Shown here piece by piece: positions 3,601-24,992 of a stretch of 24,992 nt of DNA (the stretch's first letter is position 1; each line of letters starts with the position of its first letter). Origin of the DNA: a virus; IMG/VR virus record IMGVR_UViG_3300042515_001220, positions 1 to 24,992 of that record; one strand, 5' to 3'. A model generated the notes under the pieces. It did not search any database. It saw nothing but the letters and a program-made list of their open reading frames with translations, and was not told where the DNA came from. Position numbers and translations under genes: made by a program.

Positions 3601-6020
3601 ATGATCAATGGCCGCTCGCCGCCAGCGGTAATGGCCGCCCTGGCACCGCCGCCAAAGCCGCGGCTATCAATTGCGCCTTGAAAGCTGGTCTGCCCTGCTG
3701 CTGGGAGGGCCAGCGTGCGAGCTGGGGCCCCAGCAAATGCCGGGGTGTATCGTGCCCGCGCCAGCAGTCCGGCCTCCAGTGCAGCCGCTGCGGCCTTCTG
3801 GGATGCAGCGATCTGATCGAGCTGCCGATCCAAGGCCTTCAGCTGGTCGGCCGCTCGCGCAAAGGCTGGCGCTGCTGGGTTGACCGCGTTTTGCAGCGCA
3901 GCCCATGCCGTTCGCTGTTGGTTGATGCTGCCGATGCTGCCATTGCTGGCAGCTGTAACCCGGTCGATCTCCAGGTACAGCTCAGCCAGTGCGCCACGGG
4001 TGCGCTGGGCGGCATCCTGTTGTTGCCGCAACACCGCATCAGATCGGCTGGCCATCACCTGGCCGATGTCGTCGCGGGTGCCGGCGGTTTCGTAATTGCT
4101 GAGAATCCGAGCCCCGCCGCCCATGCCCAGGGCATTGACGCGCCCCTGGAAACTGCTCTGCCCGGCTGCGGGTAGCAGCAGGCTGCGAGCCGAGGCGAAT
4201 GCAGGGGTGTAGGCAGCCCGAGCGGCCAGCGCCGCCTGCCGCTCTGCCTCGGCAGTCGCTTTTACCGCAGCTGTGAGCTGTTGCTGAGCCTCCAGCCGAT
4301 CGCGGACGCCCTGCACCAGCGCCTTCTGCTCACCCTTGATCCGGTTGATCTCCCGCTCAGCCGACACCACGGCATTGGCCGCTCGACGGGCCTCCGCCGA
4401 ATCGCTGGGCACCTCGCCCAACCGCTGCAGGTTGCGATCCCTCAGCTCTTGCTGAGCCTCCAATCGAGCGTTGGGCACCTTGTCGTAGATGCGCACCAGA
4501 TCGCTCAAAACCTTCTGGGCGCCGTCGCTGATGCCACGGAATGAGGCCTCTAGATCGGCCTGCGCTTCGTCTGCCTGGCGACTCAGAACCTGATAGACCC
4601 CAGCAATCGCCAGCGATGCCACGCCGGCCGCAGCCGACGCTTCAGGCCCGATAGCGCTGATGGCGTTGCCAATGGCCTCGAATGGCCCAGATAGCGCCGT
4701 CAGTTTGGCTTGGGCAGCGGTGAGCGATGCCGACCACTGGCCCACGCTGTTGGCCGCTGCTGCCGCCGGTTCTGATAGCAGGCCGCCCAGGGGTTTCAAC
4801 ACCCCAGGCATTGCTGCGGCCTTGGCCGCAATCGCATCGAGGCTGTTGGCCAAGCCCTGTGCGCCGCCGGCCATGCCGCCAAGGCCCGATGCCATCCCCA
4901 TACCGGCGGCACCGGCAACACCAGATGCTGCCAGCCCTTCACCGGTGAGCACCACCCGGCCCATCATTGAGCGGGCTAGGTCCTGGCGCATCGCCACAAT
5001 GTTTTGCACGGCGCCGACCGTGCCCCGCGCCACGTTGCCAGGGGTGACCTGGAGGCCCTTGCTCAGATCGAGGCTGGCGGCCTTCTGGCGCAGTGCGTCG
5101 ATCTCGCGGCCAACCCGTCGGTAGGCGTCGCCGGCCTCACCTAGCGTCGCCTGCAGCAGGGTGACCTGACGCGACTGCTGAGCGACGGATTCACCTGCGG
5201 CCTTTGAAAATAATTTCCAGCCGCGAATCCCAGGCTCCCAGGCCAGCCCGATCTGTACCGCGCGATCCTTAAGTTTGTCTAGTTCTGCCGTGTGCTGGCG
5301 AATATCGCCACCACCTCGCCGCATCAATTCTATAAATTCCCGCTGCTCCTGAATTTGCTGACTCACTGAGTCAGCGTGCGCCTGCCCAGCTGCAGCAGCG
5401 CGTTTCAGGTTGTTGACATTATTGCTAGATTCAATATCTGCGGCTTTGGTAATCGCCGTAAGCCGCTGAATATCGCTGCTCAGTGCATTAAAGGTGCTGC
5501 CGTTAATCTCCGCTTGGCTGCGTAGATTCTTTAGCGCAGTGAGCTGCAGATTTATGGAGCGCTCAGATTGAGTATTAGCGGCGCCATATTGCAAAACGCT
5601 TTCGCGTAATTTTGCTAGTTGCGCTTCGGCCGGCTGCAGGAAATCTTGCAGCTTGCGAATGCTAGCGGCACCTTTCACCGCCGATCCGCTCAGCCCATCA
5701 AAGGCGCCGGTGCTCTGGTTTTTGATCCGCTGAAAATCAGCACCCAGGGCCTTGGCCTCGCCGCCCATCCGCCGCATCTCAGCAGCGCCGGCCTGGGCAC
5801 CGGTGCGCAAGGCCTGGAGCGCTACCGCCTGACTCCTGGCTGCTGCGCCGGCTCGCGCCGATTCATTGGCAGCCCGGCTGGATTCTTGCGCTGCCTGCTG
5901 TAGTCCGGTGCTGGCATTTTTGGCCGAGCTTTCTACGCCCTGGAGCCCCTCGCCCAGCGTTTTGATCTCGTTGGCGCCAGCAACCTGGGCCGTAATTTTG
6001 AGAATCGCGTCGAGATTCAC
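663..6020 (-). CDS. Tail tape-measure protein with internal duplication and lysozyme-like domain
   Basis: At 1785 aa this is the largest gene in the window. It starts at GTG (6018-6020) because AGGAGG lies 7 bases upstream, inside the end of the T reading frame. The first ~330 residues are helical, rich in Q, A and R, as expected of the tape region. Residues ~640-900 hold two related copies of a ~150-aa block. Residues ~985-1170 look like the conserved tape-measure domain (GEELNSVYEQTPQVIREIAE, then IVLQAL, then ALKKAWNEL). Residues ~1272-1411 look like a lysozyme-type fold, with SFETGGTFSP (candidate catalytic Glu 1298) and YLGLIQMGGPERKKYG. The C-terminus has a Gly-rich segment, RFAGGGYTGNGPRSGG then AMLHPRETVVDHAQG, common at the end of tape-measure proteins. 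The protein sets tail length, is ejected with DNA, and may open the peptidoglycan. At about 0.15 nm per residue (lambda gpH rule) the tail could be up to ~270 nm, less for the globular domains. Confidence 0.93.
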   Translation of the reverse strand: MNLDAILKITAQVAGANEIKTLGEGLQGVESSAKNASTGLQQAAQESSRAANESARAGAAARSQAVALQALRTGAQAGAAEMRRMGGEAKALGADFQRIKNQSTGAFDGLSGSAVKGAASIRKLQDFLQPAEAQLAKLRESVLQYGAANTQSERSINLQLTALKNLRSQAEINGSTFNALSSDIQRLTAITKAADIESSNNVNNLKRAAAAGQAHADSVSQQIQEQREFIELMRRGGGDIRQHTAELDKLKDRAVQIGLAWEPGIRGWKLFSKAAGESVAQQSRQVTLLQATLGEAGDAYRRVGREIDALRQKAASLDLSKGLQVTPGNVARGTVGAVQNIVAMRQDLARSMMGRVVLTGEGLAASGVAGAAGMGMASGLGGMAGGAQGLANSLDAIAAKAAAMPGVLKPLGGLLSEPAAAAANSVGQWSASLTAAQAKLTALSGPFEAIGNAISAIGPEASAAAGVASLAIAGVYQVLSRQADEAQADLEASFRGISDGAQKVLSDLVRIYDKVPNARLEAQQELRDRNLQRLGEVPSDSAEARRAANAVVSAEREINRIKGEQKALVQGVRDRLEAQQQLTAAVKATAEAERQAALAARAAYTPAFASARSLLLPAAGQSSFQGRVNALGMGGGARILSNYETAGTRDDIGQVMASRSDAVLRQQQDAAQRTRGALAELYLEIDRVTAASNGSIGSINQQRTAWAALQNAVNPAAPAFARAADQLKALDRQLDQIAASQKAAAAALEAGLLARARYTPAFAGAPARTLALPAAGQTSFQGAIDSRGFGGGARAAITAGGERPLIMGVDRTGRAAFGGASDYAGPQFGVASNATAQASQRTRGALAELFITIDRVTAASNGSVSSLQRQRSAWEALRVAVSPAAPAYARATAQVQQLDEKLAKLTATQRKQQDVQRQGIGREAIGSALGTLASGGGAQGAIGALAGGLAFSGGPAGIVAGAGVAAAGATLGSGVTNAMQLQQSQLRLKLLSEGFDSFNAVQKTAIDLGNKFNTIQADASNQFASSYARLRPLGFTLAEISDIYSGFNTAAKLSGTTASEAAGAWLQLSQALGSGALRGEELNSVYEQTPQVIREIAEVMDIPIGKIKDYAKQGKITSAIVLQALQNISKEGAGKLAASMEGPIEKTNALKKAWNELSVTVGTAAMPAFVGVLDVTTKIIQGINSVDWSVLAMGLGADPTPRGAKAPRLTGPKLKPYTVAGITYDPITGASISRDLSGERSRAAAARQVTADDAAKTAAKETRTSTSFQPSSKARALISAAGKLGVSPLDLATIISFETGGTFSPGKWGGSGNNYLGLIQMGGPERKKYGAHAGQSFEEQVQGPVVRYLQDRFKSRGMSTQGADLLTLYRTVLGGNPKASLTRTDGNKVTPASGVARMGPHRQKALRMFFGGSLENVGYDLAQAGADQVQGREETAALQKTRADQLAASRDLLATKQGLLRIAQATGPAEKLLAEFDAARTERMREYADRLRAALSDDERRALLSAQVADAGAAEIQYREGLKRITEEQLDLDRQRLENVFAMGDAIKEYQSRDSASAGLSQGMKQYGDSIGNVRDAIASLTVDGMGGLENSLVSLATTGSGNFNAFAASVLTDTSRMIFRQFVLKTIMTALGFLSPSAAAAPSMAQSFTGDFGGGISTGFPGAITSFNPVGPAPVGLPRFAGGGYTGNGPRSGGLDGRGGFMAMLHPRETVVDHAQGNSGTTSSTQVNIAVHVHPNGNVTSNSDGSGDAQALGNDLARMLVPMVGPMVDRQLQRHMERGGLLNR
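1790..2205 (-). other. Lysozyme-like (peptidoglycan hydrolase) domain inside the tape-measure gene
   Basis: Residues ~1272-1411 of the tape-measure protein form a compact domain: helix SSKARALISAAGKLG, then LDLATIISFETGGTFSPG, then NNYLGLIQMGGPERKKYG, then SFEEQVQGPVVRYLQDRF. The E-T-G-G after a hydrophobic helix followed by G-L-I-Q is the usual layout of lysozyme/transglycosylase-like domains carried by phage tape-measure and tail proteins. Glu 1298 (codon at 2127-2129) is the candidate catalytic acid. The domain would help the tail cross the cell wall during DNA injection. Assignment is by motif reading only. Confidence 0.7.
3300..4217 (-). repeat. Intragenic tandem duplication in the tape-measure gene (two diverged copies, period ~460 bases)
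   Basis: Two blocks of the tape-measure protein share an ordered set of segments. Copy 1 (about 3800-4217) has AAYTPAFASARSLLLPAAGQ, SFQG, GGGAR, QRTRGALAELYLEIDRVTA, SNGSI, QRTAWAALQNAV, PAAPAFARAADQ and LDRQLDQ. Copy 2 (about 3300-3757) has ARYTPAFAGAPARTLALPAA, SFQG, GGGAR, QRTRGALAELFITIDRVTA, SNGSV, QRSAWEALRVAV, PAAPAYARATAQ and LDEKLAK. The stretch between GGGAR and QRTRGALAEL is less conserved. The order is the same, so this is a duplication rather than chance low complexity. Confidence 0.85.
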
Positions 6021-7969: not shown

Positions 7970-8398
7970 CTAGATAGTTGCGGTCGGGTCGTCGCGCCGG
8001 TGGCGGAAACGAACCTCGAACCTCAGCCTAGCAATTCCGATCTCTCCCACGGCACGATCCCACTCTGTCCCTTCGGGCACGATGTCCCAGGCCAAGCCCC
8101 CCAGGGTGCGGGGGCTGGCCATCAGCCGCTGACTGATTTCAACGCGGATCGGATCGGCCAATGTGCTGAGCGGCCGGCCTGAAACGCAGATGTCAACGAA
8201 GGCCTTCAGCCGGCAGTCCACCACGGGCACCGTTCCAGCGCTGCTGATCTCAGCGTCGCAGCCCAGGATCAGGCACGGGCATTCGTCGCGGCTGGGCGGC
8301 TCCTCGCGCTCGCGCCAGATCCTCGCGCCTACCTGCGGCACGCCCTGCAGCAGGGCCTCGACGGCCACCAGGATGCGCTCACTGATGCTGCTGGTCAT
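7970..8398 (-). CDS. Tail terminator / minor tail protein U-like
   Basis: This 142-aa protein has the layout of tail terminator proteins: helix SSISERILVAVEALLQGVPQ, a strand with ARIWREREEPPSRDECPCLI, a central strand VVDCRLKAFVDICVSG, then RPLSTLADPIRVEISQRLMA, LGGLAWDIVPEGTEWD and a final strand LRFEVRFRHRRDDP. The DP-R-EI---L--- and terminal -R----DP motif are common in gpU-like and related families. Lambda gpU is 131 aa. It would cap the tail tube once it reaches the length set by the tape measure and offer the joint to the head. It is placed just before the tail tube gene, as in lambda (U then V). The ATG is at 8396-8398, without an obvious Shine-Dalgarno sequence. Confidence 0.8.
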   Translation of the reverse strand: MTSSISERILVAVEALLQGVPQVGARIWREREEPPSRDECPCLILGCDAEISSAGTVPVVDCRLKAFVDICVSGRPLSTLADPIRVEISQRLMASPRTLGGLAWDIVPEGTEWDRAVGEIGIARLRFEVRFRHRRDDPTATI

Positions 8399-8444
8399 GG
8401 CCGGCGGCTATAGGGGTCAGGGTCGAGAGTCCGAGCGCCAGGGG

Positions 8445-8684
8445 TCAGCGCACGCGGCGGGTTGGGGCGGCCCCAGTGCGGCCGGCAGAATCCGGCCCGC
8501 CAGCAGCGCCACGAGCAGCAGGGTTAGCAATAGCTCGCGCCAACGCGATGGCATCGCCACGCCGCGCGGCGCTCAGCACCAGCTGTAACACGCTGTTGCT
8601 CCGCAGCCTGCTCATGCCGATCAGCTCGCTGGTCACAAAAAGCCCTAGGCCTACATATTCCACGTAGTGGCTGAAGATGGTCAT
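8445..8684 (-). CDS. Small uncharacterised protein, possible membrane-associated N-terminus
   Basis: This 79-aa protein begins at ATG (8682-8684) with GAGG 6-9 bases upstream. The N-terminal ~40 residues (YVEYVGLGLFVTSELIGMSR, then RSNSVLQLVLSAARR) are hydrophobic to amphipathic and look like a folded or membrane-associated segment. The C-terminal half is Ala/Gly/Arg-rich and probably disordered (ARAIANPAARGAAGG). The SELIG---RLRSNSVLQL motif reminds me of small conserved proteins in cyanobacterial phages, but I cannot check this. It lies in a run of small genes between the head-tail joining and tail terminator genes. Function unknown. Confidence 0.55.
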   Translation of the reverse strand: MTIFSHYVEYVGLGLFVTSELIGMSRLRSNSVLQLVLSAARRGDAIALARAIANPAARGAAGGPDSAGRTGAAPTRRVR

Positions 8685-8730
8685 GGGGTGCCTCTGTCTG
8701 GCTACAGGCTACTGCCAACAGCCGGCCAGC

Positions 8731-8931
8731 TCACAGGCCGCCATCCCTCAGTCGTTCGTCGTGGCGGTCGGCGACCTGCTCCAGTCGGTTGATCTGGGAT
8801 TGCTGGTTCCGGATCACCTCAAGGATTTTGGCCTCGAACGAGCCGAGGCCCCTGGCAATTTTGAACAGTGCTGCGGCGCCAGCAGAGCCCACTCCCAGCA
8901 ACGACAGGCCTAGGGCCGCTAGCGCGATCAT
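8731..8931 (-). CDS. Small one-helix membrane protein with coiled coil
   Basis: This 66-aa protein starts at ATG (8929-8931) with GGGAG about 9 bases upstream. Residues 1-24 (IALAALGLSLLGVGSAGAAA) form one membrane helix. Residues ~30-62 form a charged amphipathic helix with heptad-like spacing (FEAKILEVIRNQQSQINRLE, then QVADRHDERL). One helix plus an exposed coiled coil fits a holin-accessory, spanin-like or membrane-anchored structural role, but nothing decides between these. It sits among small genes in the head-to-tail region, not next to a visible endolysin, so I do not call it a holin. Confidence 0.6.
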   Translation of the reverse strand: MIALAALGLSLLGVGSAGAAALFKIARGLGSFEAKILEVIRNQQSQINRLEQVADRHDERLRDGGL

Positions 8932-8950
8932 TGCATCAACTCCCGTCGCC

Positions 8951-9325
8951 TCAGGCTAGCGAGTCTAAGGCTGACTCACCATCGCCGGGTTCCGGATCGG
9001 GCTCGGGCAGTCGAACAATGGTGGCCGTGCCGTCAAGGTGCAATGTGACATCCCAGGGGGCCATCAGCTGCAATCGGTCGGCAGTGCAGCCTGGAGAATA
9101 TTTTTCCAGCAACTCGCACAAGTCAGCGGACAGCGCAAACATTCCAGACGCTGTAATCCCTAACTCCGCGACTGTTGCGGCTGGATCTGCGCATTGCCAA
9201 ATTTTGTCCATACCCATTTGCCATGCGTTCAGCATGGAAGCGAGCGTGCTGAGTGCCATAGTCTGCACTTCTAGCGCGGCTCGTTTTGCCTGGGCATTGC
9301 TGCTGAGGGCTTGAATCGTATCCAT
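8951..9325 (-). CDS. Uncharacterised protein in the head-tail block
   Basis: This 124-aa protein starts at ATG (9323-9325), three bases after the TAA of the 660-aa virion-protein gene. I do not recognise a family. The first ~75 residues are predicted by eye to be helical (ALEVQTMALSTLASMLNAWQ; TASGMFALSADLCELLEKYS). They are followed by PWDVTLHLDGTATIVRLPEP, a likely beta hairpin, and an acidic end (DPEPGDGESALDSLA). There is no signal peptide or membrane segment. Tight linkage to the 660-aa gene suggests it works with that product, for example as a chaperone or partner subunit. This is inference from position only. Confidence 0.6.
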   Translation of the reverse strand: MDTIQALSSNAQAKRAALEVQTMALSTLASMLNAWQMGMDKIWQCADPAATVAELGITASGMFALSADLCELLEKYSPGCTADRLQLMAPWDVTLHLDGTATIVRLPEPDPEPGDGESALDSLA

Positions 9326-9328
9326 GGG

Positions 9329-11311
9329 TTAGAACCCTTTCAGAAGTACATAATTTAGGATTGTAGTGCCGCCAGATCCGGCGGTAACGACAATCCCCCG
9401 AATAGCCTGGGTGTTTACGTTGGCGACGGTAACGCTCGCCGGCCTAGCCGCGTTTGCCGCAAGCGCAGCGCCAATGTCGTACCACGCGGCTGTTGGCGAT
9501 TGCCAATCGTCCTCCGTGCCCTGCATTTGAACTACCGGGGCAGTGGTGCCGATAGCGTCAGCCCTGATTACCATTTGCAGGTTGCGGCAATCGCCAACAA
9601 TCAGAGCTGGCGTCACGGACGAGGCTGTAGTTAGCGATATGGTGCGGTCATAGCGCTGGCGAATAGCAAGAGGCGCTGCACTAAAGACAAGGCGACTAAT
9701 TGAGCGCGTGAGCTGCGTTCCAGTGTTTAGGGTTTGAACGTAGCGCCACCTGTTGCCACCAGAAATCAGCGCTGGAGACCTGTACTGGCCATTTGCTGTA
9801 ATGCGCGGCAAATCATAAATAACATACCAGGTTGCGCCAAGGTCGCCGGATTGCTCAATCCTAAAGTCGGCCCAGGCATTTGCCCCTGACATGCCGCTTA
9901 TTGAAATCTCAACTGCAAAACTAAGCCCCCAACTGTGCGAGATGTTGGCTGAAGTTACGCTGGCGGATATTGTCGCTGAAATAACGTCAGTGGTCTGGGC
10001 TGTTGCTGCCAGGGCAATAAATGAGCCGGGCACCGGCACGATCGCTTGGATGCTAGGCATAAATGATGTTTCACTCCATTGCTGTAGATTAACGTAAACC
10101 GTGCTTCCAGTTGTTGCGGTAGCCAATCGCAATCTAAACCACAACGCGCAAACGTTTGTGTTATAATTACCTACGGCAAACGTCGTGAGAGCAGCGCCGT
10201 TTGTGGCATTTATTAATTGCGCAGTAAATACGCCAACGCTGAAAGAGCTATCTGGCGCCCACTCTGCCACAATTAGGCCACCTGTGCCTATTGAAAAACA
10301 CTGTATCGACAGCATGCGCGTATTGGCGCAGTCGATTGGGCCGATCAGAATTGTGTTGACGCTCAGCGGGCCAGGAGTTGCCTGCTGGTAGACCGAATTA
10401 ATAGGCGCGGCGGGCGACGCAACAACAGGCAACGCCGTGCCGCCGCTGGCCCCCTGCACCGACAACACATCCCCGCTGGGGGTTCCGGGAACGCCAATAG
10501 CTGGCTGTCTAGCGGCTGTGGCCGCGCCGGTCGGCAGGCTGGGCTCCACCAACAGCCGACCACTGCTCAGCGCGGCCGGGAGCCGATCCAGCAGCGCCTG
10601 GTAGAGCACCTGCACCAATCCCGCGAGGCCGCTGGCGCCAGTTGGCAGGGTGGGGGCATCTGTGCCGGTGACGCCCAGTCTGCCGTCAATGCTGCCCAGC
10701 GCAACATTAGATGCCGCCTGGTTGGTGGCTGTGGATGCATTGGTCGCCAACGACGGTTCAACCTGCAGCCGCGTGCCGGATAGGGTCAGAATTGGCAGCC
10801 TCGCAGTCAGCTGCACGTTGGTCAGCGGGCCAGAGACCGGCTGAGTTGTCTGCCAAAAAGTCCCTGAAACCGGCTGAGTTGCTGGCCAGAACGTTCCGCT
10901 GACTGGCACTGGCTGAGCCCTCAGCTCAACATCAGTCAGCGGTCCAGATACGGGCCACCGTCCACCGTCCAGCGGCGGCAATTTGTCGCCGATGCCACCC
11001 AGCAGGACATTCCCGGCTGCCTGCAGTGCGCTGGTAGCGCCTATTTCGCTGTCATCAATAACAATTTGCAGCGCATCGCCGCTGTTCATTGCTGTGGTGG
11101 CGATCTCAAGCGTTAAAATGCCTGTTGTCGCGTTATATGCGCCGCCACGTCCCGACTGTACGGGCAGATAAAGATAAATCTCATTAGAAGTATTGACAAT
11201 GCTGACAATCTGTGCCTGATGCGTTGGCCTCGTAGATCCCGCTGCAAACGTCACCGTTCCAGCCGTTGGGCTAAACGTGAACAGCGATGGGTCGAGCGGT
11301 GGCTTGCGCAT
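9329..11311 (-). CDS. Large repeat-containing putative virion protein
   Basis: This 660-aa protein starts at ATG (9309+2000=11309-11311), sharing one base with the TAA of the upstream head-tail joining gene. Residues ~1-95 are a beta-rich N-terminal domain (FSPTAGTVTFAAGS, then EIYLYLPVQSG, then ALQIVIDDSEIGA). Residues ~115-180 carry short repeats of the PVSG type (QPVPVSGTFW, TQPVSGTFW, TQPVSGPL). Then come two VEPSL-T-A-TA--Q-A repeats. The C-terminal ~350 residues are Ser/Thr/Gly-rich beta segments (GDLGATWYVIYDLPRI; QGTEDDWQSPTAAWYDIGAA) resembling receptor or decoration domains. PVSGT-type repeats are common in phage virion proteins of unknown role. It sits where lambda has FII, Z and U, far from the normal tail-fibre position, so a neck or head/tail decoration role is possible. 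Transcribed with the head genes; exact function unknown. Confidence 0.7.
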   Translation of the reverse strand: MRKPPLDPSLFTFSPTAGTVTFAAGSTRPTHQAQIVSIVNTSNEIYLYLPVQSGRGGAYNATTGILTLEIATTAMNSGDALQIVIDDSEIGATSALQAAGNVLLGGIGDKLPPLDGGRWPVSGPLTDVELRAQPVPVSGTFWPATQPVSGTFWQTTQPVSGPLTNVQLTARLPILTLSGTRLQVEPSLATNASTATNQAASNVALGSIDGRLGVTGTDAPTLPTGASGLAGLVQVLYQALLDRLPAALSSGRLLVEPSLPTGAATAARQPAIGVPGTPSGDVLSVQGASGGTALPVVASPAAPINSVYQQATPGPLSVNTILIGPIDCANTRMLSIQCFSIGTGGLIVAEWAPDSSFSVGVFTAQLINATNGAALTTFAVGNYNTNVCALWFRLRLATATTGSTVYVNLQQWSETSFMPSIQAIVPVPGSFIALAATAQTTDVISATISASVTSANISHSWGLSFAVEISISGMSGANAWADFRIEQSGDLGATWYVIYDLPRITANGQYRSPALISGGNRWRYVQTLNTGTQLTRSISRLVFSAAPLAIRQRYDRTISLTTASSVTPALIVGDCRNLQMVIRADAIGTTAPVVQMQGTEDDWQSPTAAWYDIGAALAANAARPASVTVANVNTQAIRGIVVTAGSGGTTILNYVLLKGF

Positions 11312-12059: not shown

Positions 12060-14132
12060 TTAGACGCCAGAAGAGCGGTAAATAAAACGCCAATCTTTTA
12101 CTGCGGCGCCGAAGTCGAAGCGAGCCAGCAGGCTTAGGCCATCCGGGTCGCGCTCAGGCACCTGGGTGATCGAGGGGCCCGGCTCATCCGTCAGGTAGCC
12201 GTAGACCAGGCCGTCGATGCGCCTGGGGGCGGCGGCTGCGTACCACTGGGTGGCGCTGCCGTCGAGGCGTGGCTCGGTGATCAGCTCAACGTTGCGGGCG
12301 TAGGGATTGGGGCCGTTGGCGCCAGTGGCAGTGGCGGGGGCGTATCCGGTGGGGTACAGGAATTGCAGACCCGCAGCCTCTAAATCTGTTGGCACAAACA
12401 TGAAATCAGGCGTCAGGTTGACCGTGACGCCACTGATGTCCGTCTGCTTGCGCATTGCCTTCTTGGCCGCATTCCAGCTGGCAATGCCAATAGCGCCAGT
12501 GCCGGTGTTGTTGTGGCCGGCGGCGAACAGTGCGAGCCCGTCCACCGATGTGACGGCATTGCCGGTGATTAACCCCCACACCAGGTTGGATTCCAGTCGG
12601 CGGAAGCCACGGCCCAGCAGCTCCGGGACGCGCTCCAAGGCAGACAGGTCATCGTTGATGATTGCCTGCCTGGAAACTGTAATCTTTTTGGTGTACGTAA
12701 GCAGCCGCCAGGTGGCCTGGGCTTCCTGAAGTGTGCCCTTGCGGTATTCGGCTCCCTCCAGCGTCAACTCAGGGGTCAAATCGCTAGCGACAACCAGATC
12801 AGAGGCGTTTTTAAAGTCCGGCAGGTTGTTCTGTCTGGCGGCTACCTTCCAGGTGGCGGGCTCTTCCTCGTAAGCAGCGTCAAGGCTTTTGTTCGCCAGG
12901 TTGCTGAACAACAGCGGGAAATCGCTGGTGCTGTGCATGGCCATGACCGCCAACTCGCTCCTGGAGCGGCCAATGGTGGAAATGCCGCGCGACTCGGCGT
13001 AGGTCCTGATGCATTCCATCAGGGAATAACCCCGGTAGCTGCGGCCCGCATCGGCCAGGGGCAGCTGGGGATTGATGCGCGTCGCCAGCATCGCCTCAAT
13101 GCCGGCCATGACATTCGAGCCCGGATCGCGGGTCACCTGCAGGCGGGCAGGGTGGCCGGCGCTGCTGCGCCCCTCCACCAGGGTGGCGTGGGCCTGCACA
13201 ATCTCGACGGCCACCTCGGCGAACGGTTTGCCGTTGTCCACCAAGGCCTGCACGGCATCAGCGCTCAGGCTGGCCTGAGCGGCGCAGCGGCGGATGTCGA
13301 TCTCGCGCCGTGCAGCGGCTAGGGCTGCCGAGTCTGAGGCAGCCTGGACAGCCTCGGTGGGGGTGGTGGGGGTGGTCGCCGGTGCGGTGGCCGCAGCCTG
13401 GGGGGGAGCGGCCTGGGGGGCCTGGGTTGCCGGCTCCCCGCCGGCTTGAGTTTGCACCGTCATCGCTAATGTCGGGGGGGGCGTAGTTGAGCCCAGTCCT
13501 GTACTCAGACTACCGACTCCAGCCCAGCTAGTGAGCAACGCCTCCGGGGGGTTGCTGAATCGATCGGCAGGCATCGGCGGATAGGCCTGGGCTCGCACGT
13601 TTGCGGCAGGGGTGATTTCGTCAATCAGGCCCGCTGCCAGCGCAGCCTCAGCATCGAACCACGTGCCAGCGCCGCCATTCGCCGCCATCCATTCCGCCAC
13701 CTGGGCCTCGCTGGCGCCGGATTTGCTGGCATAGGTGCGGCGGAAAGCCGCGCTGAAGACGTCCAGCGTGTCGGCCTGGGCCCGCATGGATGCGGAATCG
13801 CCAACGGCCATGCTCCAGCAGTTGTGGATCATCAACAGAGCGTTGGCCGGCATTACCACCCGCCCGGCCATGGCCGACAGGCTGCCTGACGACGCGGCAA
13901 CACCATCAATTGTGATTGTTTTCTGGCCGCTATAGCCGGCCAGAATGTCGTAAATTGCCAGGCCTTGGCCAGCATCGCCGCCATAGCTGAACAGGTGGAT
14001 AGCTAGAGGCCGGCCACCCGCAGATGCCAGCGCAGCCGATACGTCAGTGGCGAGAATGTCTAGCCCGAAATCGCCATACAGCTGCAACACCGGGGCAGCC
14101 GCAGAGCCTTTTACCGTTACGCCTAGCGCCAT
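12060..14132 (-). CDS. ClpP-like prohead protease fused to major capsid protein
   Basis: One 690-aa frame carries two activities that most phages encode separately. Residues ~10-175 are a ClpP-type protease: IHLFSYGGDAGQGLAIYDIL, then GVAASSGSLSAMAG (candidate nucleophile Ser 81), then ALLMIHNCW (His 103), then TWFDAEAALAAGLIDEI. The third triad residue is not clear. Residues ~210-265 are a Pro/Ala/Thr-rich linker (PPPTLAMTVQTQAGGEPATQ). Residues ~265-350 form charged helices that could serve as scaffold (delta) domain. Residues ~385-690 are the capsid protein: ATWKVAARQNNLPDFKNASD, KKITVSRQAIINDDLSALER, LLGRGFRRLESNLVWGLITG, VNLTPDFMFVPTDLEAAGLQ. These capsid motifs resemble Mu gpT/HK97-type major heads. 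The protease would cleave the linker and helical region during head maturation. Such protease-capsid fusions are known as an annotated class. The ATG is at 14130-14132. Confidence 0.92.
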   Translation of the reverse strand: MALGVTVKGSAAAPVLQLYGDFGLDILATDVSAALASAGGRPLAIHLFSYGGDAGQGLAIYDILAGYSGQKTITIDGVAASSGSLSAMAGRVVMPANALLMIHNCWSMAVGDSASMRAQADTLDVFSAAFRRTYASKSGASEAQVAEWMAANGGAGTWFDAEAALAAGLIDEITPAANVRAQAYPPMPADRFSNPPEALLTSWAGVGSLSTGLGSTTPPPTLAMTVQTQAGGEPATQAPQAAPPQAAATAPATTPTTPTEAVQAASDSAALAAARREIDIRRCAAQASLSADAVQALVDNGKPFAEVAVEIVQAHATLVEGRSSAGHPARLQVTRDPGSNVMAGIEAMLATRINPQLPLADAGRSYRGYSLMECIRTYAESRGISTIGRSRSELAVMAMHSTSDFPLLFSNLANKSLDAAYEEEPATWKVAARQNNLPDFKNASDLVVASDLTPELTLEGAEYRKGTLQEAQATWRLLTYTKKITVSRQAIINDDLSALERVPELLGRGFRRLESNLVWGLITGNAVTSVDGLALFAAGHNNTGTGAIGIASWNAAKKAMRKQTDISGVTVNLTPDFMFVPTDLEAAGLQFLYPTGYAPATATGANGPNPYARNVELITEPRLDGSATQWYAAAAPRRIDGLVYGYLTDEPGPSITQVPERDPDGLSLLARFDFGAAVKDWRFIYRSSGV

Positions 14133-22631: not shown

Positions 22632-23366
22632 TCACGAGAGGGCAATGCCAGGCTCAGGCCTGGGGTGATGGGGGTGCAGAGCCCGCCAGGTAGCCCAGGC
22701 CCCAGCCCACGCCAGGCGGCACTCGGCGACGCTGTAGAGCGGGGAGAACGTCGTAGAGCCGGGCCTGGCCCAGATGGTCTGGCCGAAGTCGTACCAATTG
22801 CCGTGGGCGGCTTCGAGGGCCTGGTAGCCGCCGAGCTGGGCGGCTGTGGAGTACGTGGCGCCCCCCTCGCCCAGGGTCTTCAGGTCCGCCAACACCCTGG
22901 CGGGCCCAGTGGCCCATGCGGGCCGATCTGGCGAGGGGGGCAGGGCGGGATCGATGTAGGCCACGTCGAACGTGCCGGCGACCCGGCGCCTGACGCAGCA
23001 GGTGGGGCGTTCGCAGGCGATCACCTCGACCTGAGCCCAGCGTTCGTGGTTGAGCAGCGGCGCTGTCCAATCGCTGTAGTCCCCGTGCAGCAGGCCCACC
23101 ATCTCGTCGGATTCGCTGCGAAAGCCAGGCTGGTCGCTGTGCTCCAGCAGTAGGAACAGCTCCAAAACTCGGTGGCAGCTGTTACCTCTGGGCTCCCAGG
23201 TGGCGCGTGTGGCCTCGATCCTGGCCATGGCGAACTCGCTCTTCAGCACTGACAGGACGCCGGTCACCGAGACGGGGAACTCCAGATCGCCTAGCCAGTA
23301 CCGGTGTTCAGGGTCGCGGCGGTGCAGGCCGGGGATGGCGGGGAGCCAGGAGGGGGATGTGGTCAT
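22632..23366 (-). CDS. PD-(D/E)XK nuclease, RecB-like exonuclease
   Basis: This 244-aa protein shows the RecB-family nuclease pattern in order: GNSCH (Gly 61, His 65) in a helix RGNSCHRVLELFLLLEH, Glu 114 in WAQVEVIAC, VAGTFDVAYID (Asp 134), VLADLKTLGEGGATYST (Asp 161 and Lys 163 in DLK), and AAQLGGYQ (Gln 177, Tyr 181). These are motifs of the fold shared by RecB, lambda exonuclease-like and Cas4-like proteins. It probably degrades DNA ends for recombination or processes host or phage DNA during replication. It starts at ATG 23364-23366, 18 bases from the 17-base G run at 23385-23401. It sits beside the helicase-like gene and upstream of RusA, consistent with a recombination module. Confidence 0.9.
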   Translation of the reverse strand: MTTSPSWLPAIPGLHRRDPEHRYWLGDLEFPVSVTGVLSVLKSEFAMARIEATRATWEPRGNSCHRVLELFLLLEHSDQPGFRSESDEMVGLLHGDYSDWTAPLLNHERWAQVEVIACERPTCCVRRRVAGTFDVAYIDPALPPSPDRPAWATGPARVLADLKTLGEGGATYSTAAQLGGYQALEAAHGNWYDFGQTIWARPGSTTFSPLYSVAECRLAWAGAWATWRALHPHHPRPEPGIALS

Positions 23367-23384
23367 CGGGGGTCGAGAGGCTGA

Positions 23385-23401
23385 GGGGGGGGGGGGGGGG
23401 G
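23385..23401. repeat. 17-base G homopolymer (C on the coding strand) before the nuclease gene
   Basis: Seventeen consecutive G on the plus strand (C on the minus strand) end 18 bases before the nuclease ATG, and are followed on the plus side by the palindrome CTACGTAG (23404-23411). Long G/C runs are prone to slippage, so the length may vary between copies of this genome and could alter promoter spacing or leader structure. It may also be a sequencing or assembly artefact. Confidence 0.95.
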
Positions 23402-23415
23402 TACTACGTAGGGGC

Positions 23416-23620
23416 GGGAATCGGGAATTTTTCGGCCAAACGGCAGTAGTGGCGGGCGATCTCAGCTTTCAGAGAGCGGGAAAATGTGTGGGAATTTGGA
23501 GGCCCATCGGGAAAACAGGCGGGAATGCCGGGAAGGCGTCGGTGAAGGCTCGATTCCAAGGGGCGAAAAATCCCGATCAATTCCCGCATTTTCCCGCTGT
23601 TTTCCTGATTTCCATTTCCC
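23416..23620. repeat. Array of GGGAA/TTCCC motifs with a 12-bp inverted repeat (possible origin or operator)
   Basis: This non-coding stretch between the helicase-like and nuclease genes holds seven GGGAA copies on the plus strand (23416, 23423, 23478, 23490, 23509, 23521, 23530), then three TTCCC copies (23581, 23591, 23616). Thus the motif flips direction around ~23555. A perfect inverted pair, AGCGGGAAAATG (23475-23486) and CATTTTCCCGCT (23587-23598), and GGAAAACAG (23510-23518) with CTGTTTTCC (23597-23605), support a folded or dyad arrangement. Iterated short motifs next to a helicase gene are typical of phage replication origins or regulator sites. No motif-binding protein is known here. 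Two weak open frames cross it but have repeated composition. Together with 23367-23415 and 23621-23712 it fills the only gene-free stretch longer than 300 bases. Confidence 0.6.
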
Positions 23621-23712
23621 CAGATCCACTGCACCGCAAGGCATTACAAAGAATAATTCCTGATTCCTTCTCTCTTTAGGGGGAGAGAGAGGGGTACTTG
23701 CTGCTGTGGTGG

Positions 23713-24992
23713 TTAGCGCCATGGGTTGTGGGTGCCCTGGCTGATCAGGTCGAGGGCCCTGCTGCCGGCTGGCGTGAGCTTCCAGGCGGTCCCGGACTTG
23801 CTGACCAGGCCCCGTTTGCGCAGCCAGGTGAGGTTGTTTCTGATCGTCGATTCGTTGTGGCCGTTGAGTTCGGTGATGATCAGGTTCGTTGCGGTCGAGA
23901 TCTTGCGCTGGGTGCGCACCTCAATGCAGTCGAGGATTGCGCCCCGGGCGTTGCCGGTGACCTCGCCGCGCGTTACCTCAAAGCCGTCCTCGGAGAGGCG
24001 ATAGCAAAACTCGCGAGACGGGGAGCCTCTGAGCTTGTGAACGCTCCATTCGTTGCCGGGCCCCCGGTCGGTGACCACACGGGTGAGCTGATGCACGGCG
24101 CTGGGCACCTGGTTAATGTTCTGGCTGCCTGCCGCGGCCTGCAGCCCCTTGCCAGCGGCCTTGCCGCCTGCGGGGTGATGCAGCCACAGGAGCGAGCAAT
24201 GGCGGCCAACCAGGGCTTGCATGAACCGCATCAGGGTGCCGACCGGGCCGATGCCGAAGTTGATGCCGGCCAGTTCGAGCACCGCCTTTAGGCTGTCAAT
24301 CACCACTAGCGCGTAGTCGCCCTGTTCGAGTTCGTCGCGCAGCTCCAGGAGGCCCCGGGGTGAACAACTCCAAGCGGGGGTGCCCTCGGAGCCCTCAGCT
24401 GTCCAGATGGTGAACCCGGCGATCACCTCGGGGTCAGTAGCGACTCCGAGATCCTCCAGGTACTCGCGCACCATTGCCCTGGCGCCTTCGCCGCCGTCGC
24501 TGCCAATCCAGAGGATTCTGCCGCTGCGATCAGGGGTGATCTGCTGATCAAGGAATGGCCGGCCCTTGATGATCGAGACGCCCATGGCGGCTGCGGCCAT
24601 GGTCTTGCCGGTGCCGCCAGCGCCGAAAAGGACATGATCGCGGCGCCAGAGCAGGAACCCAGGCAGCAGATCCTCAGCGGGCGAGTCGAGGGGATCAGCA
24701 ATTGAGCGGCCACGGCGCGCGCCACTGTGTCCTGCCTGCAGGGGCAGGCCCCATCGGGCGGCCAGCGCGTACATCATGCGATCGTCGATGGCGTCGCCGC
24801 GCACGCCCAGGTTCCACAAGTCCGCGCGGCAGGCCTGCTGTTTTGCCCAGGGATCGGACGGGTTTAGGTGCAGGTCGAGCAGGTGGTCTAGGAGCCGCTG
24901 AATCTGCTCATCTCGGGGCAGCTCTTCTGGCTGATCGCTGCTGGCGGTGGGCGTTGCGGCCGCGCCCTGCGGCTGTGGCGGCGTGGGCTGGC
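23713..24992 (-). CDS. RecA-fold ATPase / replicative helicase-like protein, N-terminus outside window
   Basis: The frame is open from the right edge to a TAA at 23713-23715, so about 425 codons of the C-terminal part are visible; the true start is outside the window. A TTG at 24817-24819 is only an internal codon option. The visible upstream part is Pro/Gln-rich, followed by EELPRDEQIQRLLDHL. Then come FLLWRRDHVLFGAGGTGKTM (Walker A at 24601-24624), RILWIGSDGGEGA, the Walker B-like YALVVIDSLKAVLELAG, and SLLWLHHPAGG, an arrangement of RepA/DnaB-type hexameric helicases and archaeal-type RadA/KaiC-fold proteins. The last ~70 residues (TIRNNLTWLRKRGLVSKSGT) form a winged-helix domain, perhaps for origin or partner binding. 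The likely role is DNA unwinding or loading in phage replication. It could also be the helicase part of a larger primase-helicase. Confidence 0.85.
   Translation of the reverse strand, partial: QPTPPQPQGAAATPTASSDQPEELPRDEQIQRLLDHLLDLHLNPSDPWAKQQACRADLWNLGVRGDAIDDRMMYALAARWGLPLQAGHSGARRGRSIADPLDSPAEDLLPGFLLWRRDHVLFGAGGTGKTMAAAAMGVSIIKGRPFLDQQITPDRSGRILWIGSDGGEGARAMVREYLEDLGVATDPEVIAGFTIWTAEGSEGTPAWSCSPRGLLELRDELEQGDYALVVIDSLKAVLELAGINFGIGPVGTLMRFMQALVGRHCSLLWLHHPAGGKAAGKGLQAAAGSQNINQVPSAVHQLTRVVTDRGPGNEWSVHKLRGSPSREFCYRLSEDGFEVTRGEVTGNARGAILDCIEVRTQRKISTATNLIITELNGHNESTIRNNLTWLRKRGLVSKSGTAWKLTPAGSRALDLISQGTHNPWR

Follow-up and report, generated by a model that had tools for sequence, protein, structure and literature searches.

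A candidate replication origin of two inward-facing iteron sets beside a RepA-type helicase gene in a phage probably infecting picocyanobacteria

The array and its flanking genes

The window, that is, the whole stretch of DNA that was analysed, is a virus record of 24,992 bases. The longest gap in its series of minus-strand genes is a gene-free stretch of 346 bp (23367-23712), already singled out for its size in the preliminary description, between a helicase-like gene (23713-24990) and an exonuclease-like gene of the minus strand (22632-23366, PHROG 298). This gap is occupied by an array of short motifs. On the plus strand, seven copies of GGGAA (at 23416, 23423, 23478, 23490, 23509, 23521 and 23530) are followed by three copies of TTCCC (at 23581, 23591 and 23616), exactly as first described. 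Ten copies thus lie within 205 bp; in 200 genomes simulated with a first-order Markov model the genome-wide maximum was 5 (mean 3.0), and none of 5000 simulated, locally matched sequences reached ten. CGGGAA proved to be the better core word, with eight exact copies and one CGGGAT; read on the minus strand, which is the gene direction, CGGGAA(T) occurs first in forward and then in reversed copies. The boundaries given earlier, 23416-23620, enclose a real array and are too narrow, as outer sites, AT-rich DNA and a G tract extend the whole feature to about 23385-23671.

In the gene direction, the left half begins with an AT-rich segment on the initiator side (23642-23671), a candidate melting region whose 70% AT is equalled by only 0.5% of the 30-bp windows of the record, and which contains a degenerate outer site, AGGAATTATTC. 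It is followed on the minus strand by a second conserved element, TTGCGGTGCAGTGGATCTGGG (23619-23639), matching 17 of 19 consensus positions, a number reached by none of 100 shuffles, and by the inner iterons nearest the initiator gene (23570-23596), namely CGGGAA at 23591-23596 and 23581-23586 and CGGGAT at 23570-23575. Motif orientation switches at the dyad centre (23535-23569), the sequence of which is variable. The other half, on the plus strand, comprises inner iterons (23477-23534; CGGGAA at 23477, 23508, 23520 and 23529 and the variant TGGGAA at 23489), a degenerate copy of the second element, GGCAGTAGTGGCGGGCGATCTCAG, recognised by half-site alignment (23443-23466), and the outer iterons CGGGAATCGGGAA (23415-23427), at a distance of 55 bp (23422 to 23477) from the closest inner iteron. 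A tract of 17 G (23385-23401, plus strand) ends the cassette before the next gene.

No known RNA family matched the array region. Two small ORFs of 76 and 86 aa overlap the gene-free stretch, and L003, the closest relative, has retained the longer one, as would be expected if one of them were a real gene and the repeats incidental. However, neither is conserved among the relatives, the 76-aa ORF has no family match, and no frame stays open across the relatives, so that the conserved protein-coding ORF named in the preliminary description as contrary evidence was not found. The probability of a coding function is next to negligible, and judged by these comparisons the array is non-coding.

The helicase-like gene, cut by the window edge before its primase part, encodes on the minus strand the C-terminal 425 aa of the initiator. 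It matches Pfam AAA_25 (E 5.6e-13), and the best PDB match of its AlphaFold2 model (mean pLDDT 72.6) in Foldseek was RSF1010 RepA, a replicative helicase that forms hexamers (1olo, E 4.4e-9). The protein is predicted to have a RecA-fold core like that of RSF1010 RepA, with a Walker A motif, the GKT of which is invariant, and is a putative hexamer. The winged-helix end proposed earlier is well predicted too: it spans residues about 346-417, within the last 80, with pLDDT of about 90 or more, and is modelled as helix-helix-helix-strand-strand-helix. Its PDB matches are DNA-binding regulators, mostly at about 1.4-3.5 Å over 64-75 residues and with weak E-values. Full-length relatives (716-863 aa) carry an N-terminal primase module, the kind of which varies: Prim-Pol and PriCT_2 were identified in L011, L013 and L036, and L003 and L007 gave PHROG matches of primase type. 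In the relatives, a single protein thus unites the primase, the helicase and the winged helix at the C-terminus, the combination that marks P4 alpha-like initiators.

Winged helices are often transcription regulators and the best PDB matches of this domain are repressors; since the array also lies upstream of the exonuclease gene, it could be an operator and no origin at all, used by the winged helix to control how the initiator gene, or the exonuclease gene and those that follow it, are transcribed. We consider this unlikely. The array follows the 3' end of the initiator gene and is flanked by genes of one orientation, and a search of the region for promoter or terminator patterns gave none, including no sigma-70-like promoter. 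Moreover, the protein has helicase and primase modules, and about ten sites in a two-arm layout with an AT-rich flank would be unusual for an operator. Regulation of transcription may nevertheless be a function of the array in addition to that of an origin.

Source phage and conservation of the half-origin layout

Relatives of the helicase were found in other virus records and in Synechococcus/Cyanobium genome assemblies, and the host of the phage is therefore probably a picocyanobacterium (freshwater cyanobacteria of the Synechococcus/Cyanobium type). The record G001 (46.1 kb), with a helicase 97% identical to that of the window, has a terminal overlap of 127 bp and is thus probably a complete circular genome; it contains the array once and shares the long late-gene module of the window. 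Each of four longer relatives likewise has the array cluster only once. The window itself encodes a terminase small subunit and tail families, and we therefore rejected its assignment to PICI elements, i.e., satellites without full capsid and tail genes. A 690-aa protein (12060-14132, minus strand) resembles, by reading, a ClpP-type prohead protease fused to a major capsid protein. Among sequenced phages, the only DNA-level relative was a RusA fragment of S-CBS1, where the helicase had no match. A comparable array was found neither in S-CBS1 nor in 9 kb of S-CBS3, though the latter has an annotated RepA helicase.

The alignment with relatives proposed in the preliminary description revealed strong conservation of motifs and layout, the lack of which would have spoken against an origin. 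In 23 of 26 relatives, with helicase identities from 63 to 97%, a CGGGAA array with an orientation switch follows directly after the gene; of the remaining loci, one (L013) has an array built of another word and two (L024 and L028) end inside the gene. The array faces inward in every one of the 23 loci of the CGGGAA clade that are of sufficient length to reveal it. When left halves were aligned with reverse-complemented right halves, both shared the same order: outer site, spacer with the second element (consensus TTGCNNTGCAGTGGATCTCAG) and inner sites. In most half-origins with both sites recognisable, the outer-to-inner distance is 54-56 bp (55±1), as in the left halves of L006, L066, L018, L020, L026 and L065 and the right halves of the window, L003, L006, L007, L010, L066, L018, L020, L026 and L094-L096. 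The inner CGGGAAT iterons, two or more per half-origin, are mostly 9-12 bp apart; a pitch of 11 bp is clear in L018 and L020 and irregular in the window. An AT-rich segment of 67-80% occurs at the equivalent place in most close relatives, in loci that are themselves about 31-44% AT; it is mostly located at the initiator-side flank and lies between the two iteron sets in some loci only.

These direct repeats and their spacing also bear on the possibility that a long stem-loop, as in the origin of pRN1, is the recognised feature instead of the iterons. The pRN1 origin likewise lies 3' of a gene for a primase-helicase that ends in a winged helix, and the window strand folds better than its shuffles (z -2.86). 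However, a second calculation gave only -1.1 for the window, the z-scores are near 0 in L010, L011, L066, L026, L093 and L095, and repeats and spacing are kept in relatives with such scores. A conserved long stem-loop was rejected based on this inconsistency, which makes a pRN1-type origin very unlikely.

In most close relatives the second element reaches significance; it also occurs near some unrelated helicases (L037 and L054) and is absent from the TGTGA clade. Its resemblance to the DnaA box is limited to GTGGA. It was also considered as a primase start site and rejected: the primase domains of L007 and L036 are homologous (71%) and only L007 has the element, which therefore does not simply follow the primase.

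Several loci show further peculiarities. A G/C homopolymer of about 9-17 bases, a length that could be affected by assembly, closes most arrays (L003-L027); the L014-L027 group has a C tract on one side of the array and a G tract on the other, and the TGTGA group (L036, L042 and L090) has an alternating CGCGCGCG in its place. The intergenic region of L065 that holds the CGGGAA array (about 4567-4900) also contains interspersed copies of another repeated word, TGCTAC. In L094 (9293-9540) and L096 (7091-7350), additional copies of the outer half-element (TTGCAGGGCAGTGGATCT...TTTCACGG) precede the main array on the side of the gene. L050 (841-1521) has tandem arrays whose words are similar without being identical (GTGAAC in the first and GGTCAC in the second), as would result from the duplication and divergence of an origin. 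Upstream of the primase-helicase gene, L018 (6154-6414) contains an ORF of Gly-Tyr-Gly-Asp/Asn repeats (ATAGCC x14).

Array word and the C-terminus of the helicase

Relatives of the exonuclease gene that lie next to other helicases lack CGGGAA arrays and have arrays of other words: CCGGACA (L034 and L048), GCCAAC (L037), GTCACA (L049 and, more weakly, L036 and L039) and GGAAAC (L054, all in one orientation). RTGAA and TGTGA[AC] are further words among relatives with other helicase C-termini. Based on the count of the top word alone, L036 and L052 were not significant; L037 and L052, the latter with a DUF3987 helicase, have related sequences at the position of the array. In L033, which has a VapE-type helicase, an ATGGCC/GGCCAT array (5300-5900) lies inside the 3' end of an ORF that reaches the start of the exonuclease gene.

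Within the close family, the recognition helix E(S/A)T(I/V)RNNLTWLRK pairs with CGGGAA, while EGSVRNNLTWLRK (L013 and L093-L096) pairs with RTGAA-type words. The helicase cores of the EGSVRNNLTWLRK proteins are 77-79% similar to that of the window, compared with 76-79% for several CGGGAA members. The correlation between motif and recognition helix rests on few independent evolutionary changes.

Two pairs of loci differ by a natural exchange. Upstream, L007 (CGGGAA) and L036 (TGTGAC) share 96-97% identity, which falls to 71% in the primase domain; no DNA similarity is detectable over 1.6 kb (L007 4907-6525), and the 5.2 kb that follow are 92% identical. L018 (CGGGAA) and L084 (TGTGAAC) share 85% in the primase domain, are dissimilar over 7977-9556 and are 92% identical thereafter. 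The exchanged piece consists in both pairs of the helicase, the winged helix and the array; it starts in the linker that follows the primase domain and stops close to the point where the next gene begins, so that the exonuclease gene stays outside. Since both exchanges move the array and the helicase C-terminus as one piece, the simplest reading is that the two must match, which suggests that the sites of the array are recognised by the helicase. As read from the sequences, these exchanges are the strongest evidence in the case for an origin, and they support the candidate origin put forward in the preliminary description.

The exchanges also bear on a packaging (cos/pac) or partition site, of which iterated sites about 4 kb from the terminase module might be a sign. 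This is highly improbable, as the array moved jointly with the helicase half of the initiator and the genes downstream stayed 92% identical, and the search of protein families revealed no partition gene among those covered.

Origin model and comparison with known systems

Taking together the observed array, its symmetry, spacing and conservation, its association with the part of the gene that encodes helicase and winged helix, and the fold class predicted for this part, the array is very probably the replication origin of the phage. A GC-skew change, also expected in the preliminary description, was not convincingly found: in seven relatives, two of which have terminal overlaps suggesting complete circular genomes, the skew was weak and gave no consistent pointer to the array, with detrended percentiles at the array that were low in G001, G005 and G006 and at the 96th in G010. 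We regard as highly likely the whole model, in which two inward-facing half-origins form the origin and their iterons are recognised by the C-terminal winged helix of the adjacent primase-helicase. Each half-origin would consist of an outer site, a 55-bp spacer with the second element and inner CGGGAAT iterons. Bound to these iterons by their winged helices, helicase rings would assemble face to face, one per half-origin, and the AT-rich DNA at the initiator-side flank would melt. The N-terminal primase would then lay primers for a host polymerase to extend, and bidirectional synthesis would begin.

There is a broader reading that, taken as a whole, may be right or wrong with about equal chance. 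It holds that RepA-type helicase, winged helix and symmetric iteron origin define a class of phage replicons as one exchangeable specificity cassette with interchangeable primase modules, that picocyanobacterial phages swap this cassette for origin specificity, and that half-origins of 55 bp (about five turns) load two opposed rings with no separate loader. The paired changes of motif and recognition helix make origin specificity directly testable, the natural cassette swaps being ready-made controls, and candidate origins can be offered for picocyanobacterial phages, including the isolate S-LBS1. This Synechococcus phage isolate (MG271909, L123) appears from its sequence to carry an equivalent array at 34237-34641: CTAACCT/AGGTTAG sites with a CTGCTGCAGTGGAT element directly 3' of a primase-polymerase gene, although the helicase part matches other helicase families. 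Part of the array is repeated at the end of the record. The text of the paper that describes S-LBS1 does not contain the word 'repeat', and 'replication origin' was found only in its reference list.

P4 alpha has an SF3 helicase, and P4 has two separate sites, ori and crr. Like the window system, P4 alpha is a single protein with a primase, a helicase and a winged helix at its C-terminus, but the window helicase has the AAA_25/RepA fold. The primase of P4 alpha is of the Toprim type and its C-terminal winged helix binds the origin repeats; pRN1 ORF904 also has a winged-helix DNA-binding domain (PMC4234260). ORF904 is likewise a primase-helicase whose origin lies just downstream of its gene, but this origin is a 100-nt stem-loop without iterons (PMC4234260) and the helicase is SF3, whereas the window has iterons. 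By its fold, the helicase core comes nearest to RepA of the RSF1010 RepA/RepB'/RepC system, the oriV of which is also an iteron origin. RSF1010 uses distinct proteins for iteron binding (RepC) and for priming (PMC4234260), whereas recognition, unwinding and priming seem fused in the window system.

The origins of SaPIs and PICIs are also comparable. Their known Rep helicases are of the DUF927 or Primase_C-term/D5 type and are found on satellites, unlike the RecA-fold, RepA-like (AAA_25) helicase of the window, which belongs to phages that carry virion genes. The PICI origin follows the 3' end of the initiator gene closely and consists of AT-rich DNA with an iteron set on either side (PMC6092414), while the AT-rich DNA of the window is mostly at the flank and not clearly between the sets. 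The C-terminal domain of SaPI Rep acts on the origin directly downstream, and the protein appears to bind as two hexamers (PMC7581432). Both systems nevertheless share an origin directly 3' of the initiator gene, two sets of short, initiator-specific iterons and a helicase C-terminal domain that recognises the origin in SaPI Rep and would do so in the window, with two hexamers proposed. The occurrence of a similar layout on phages with an unrelated helicase fold suggests that it is a more general solution.
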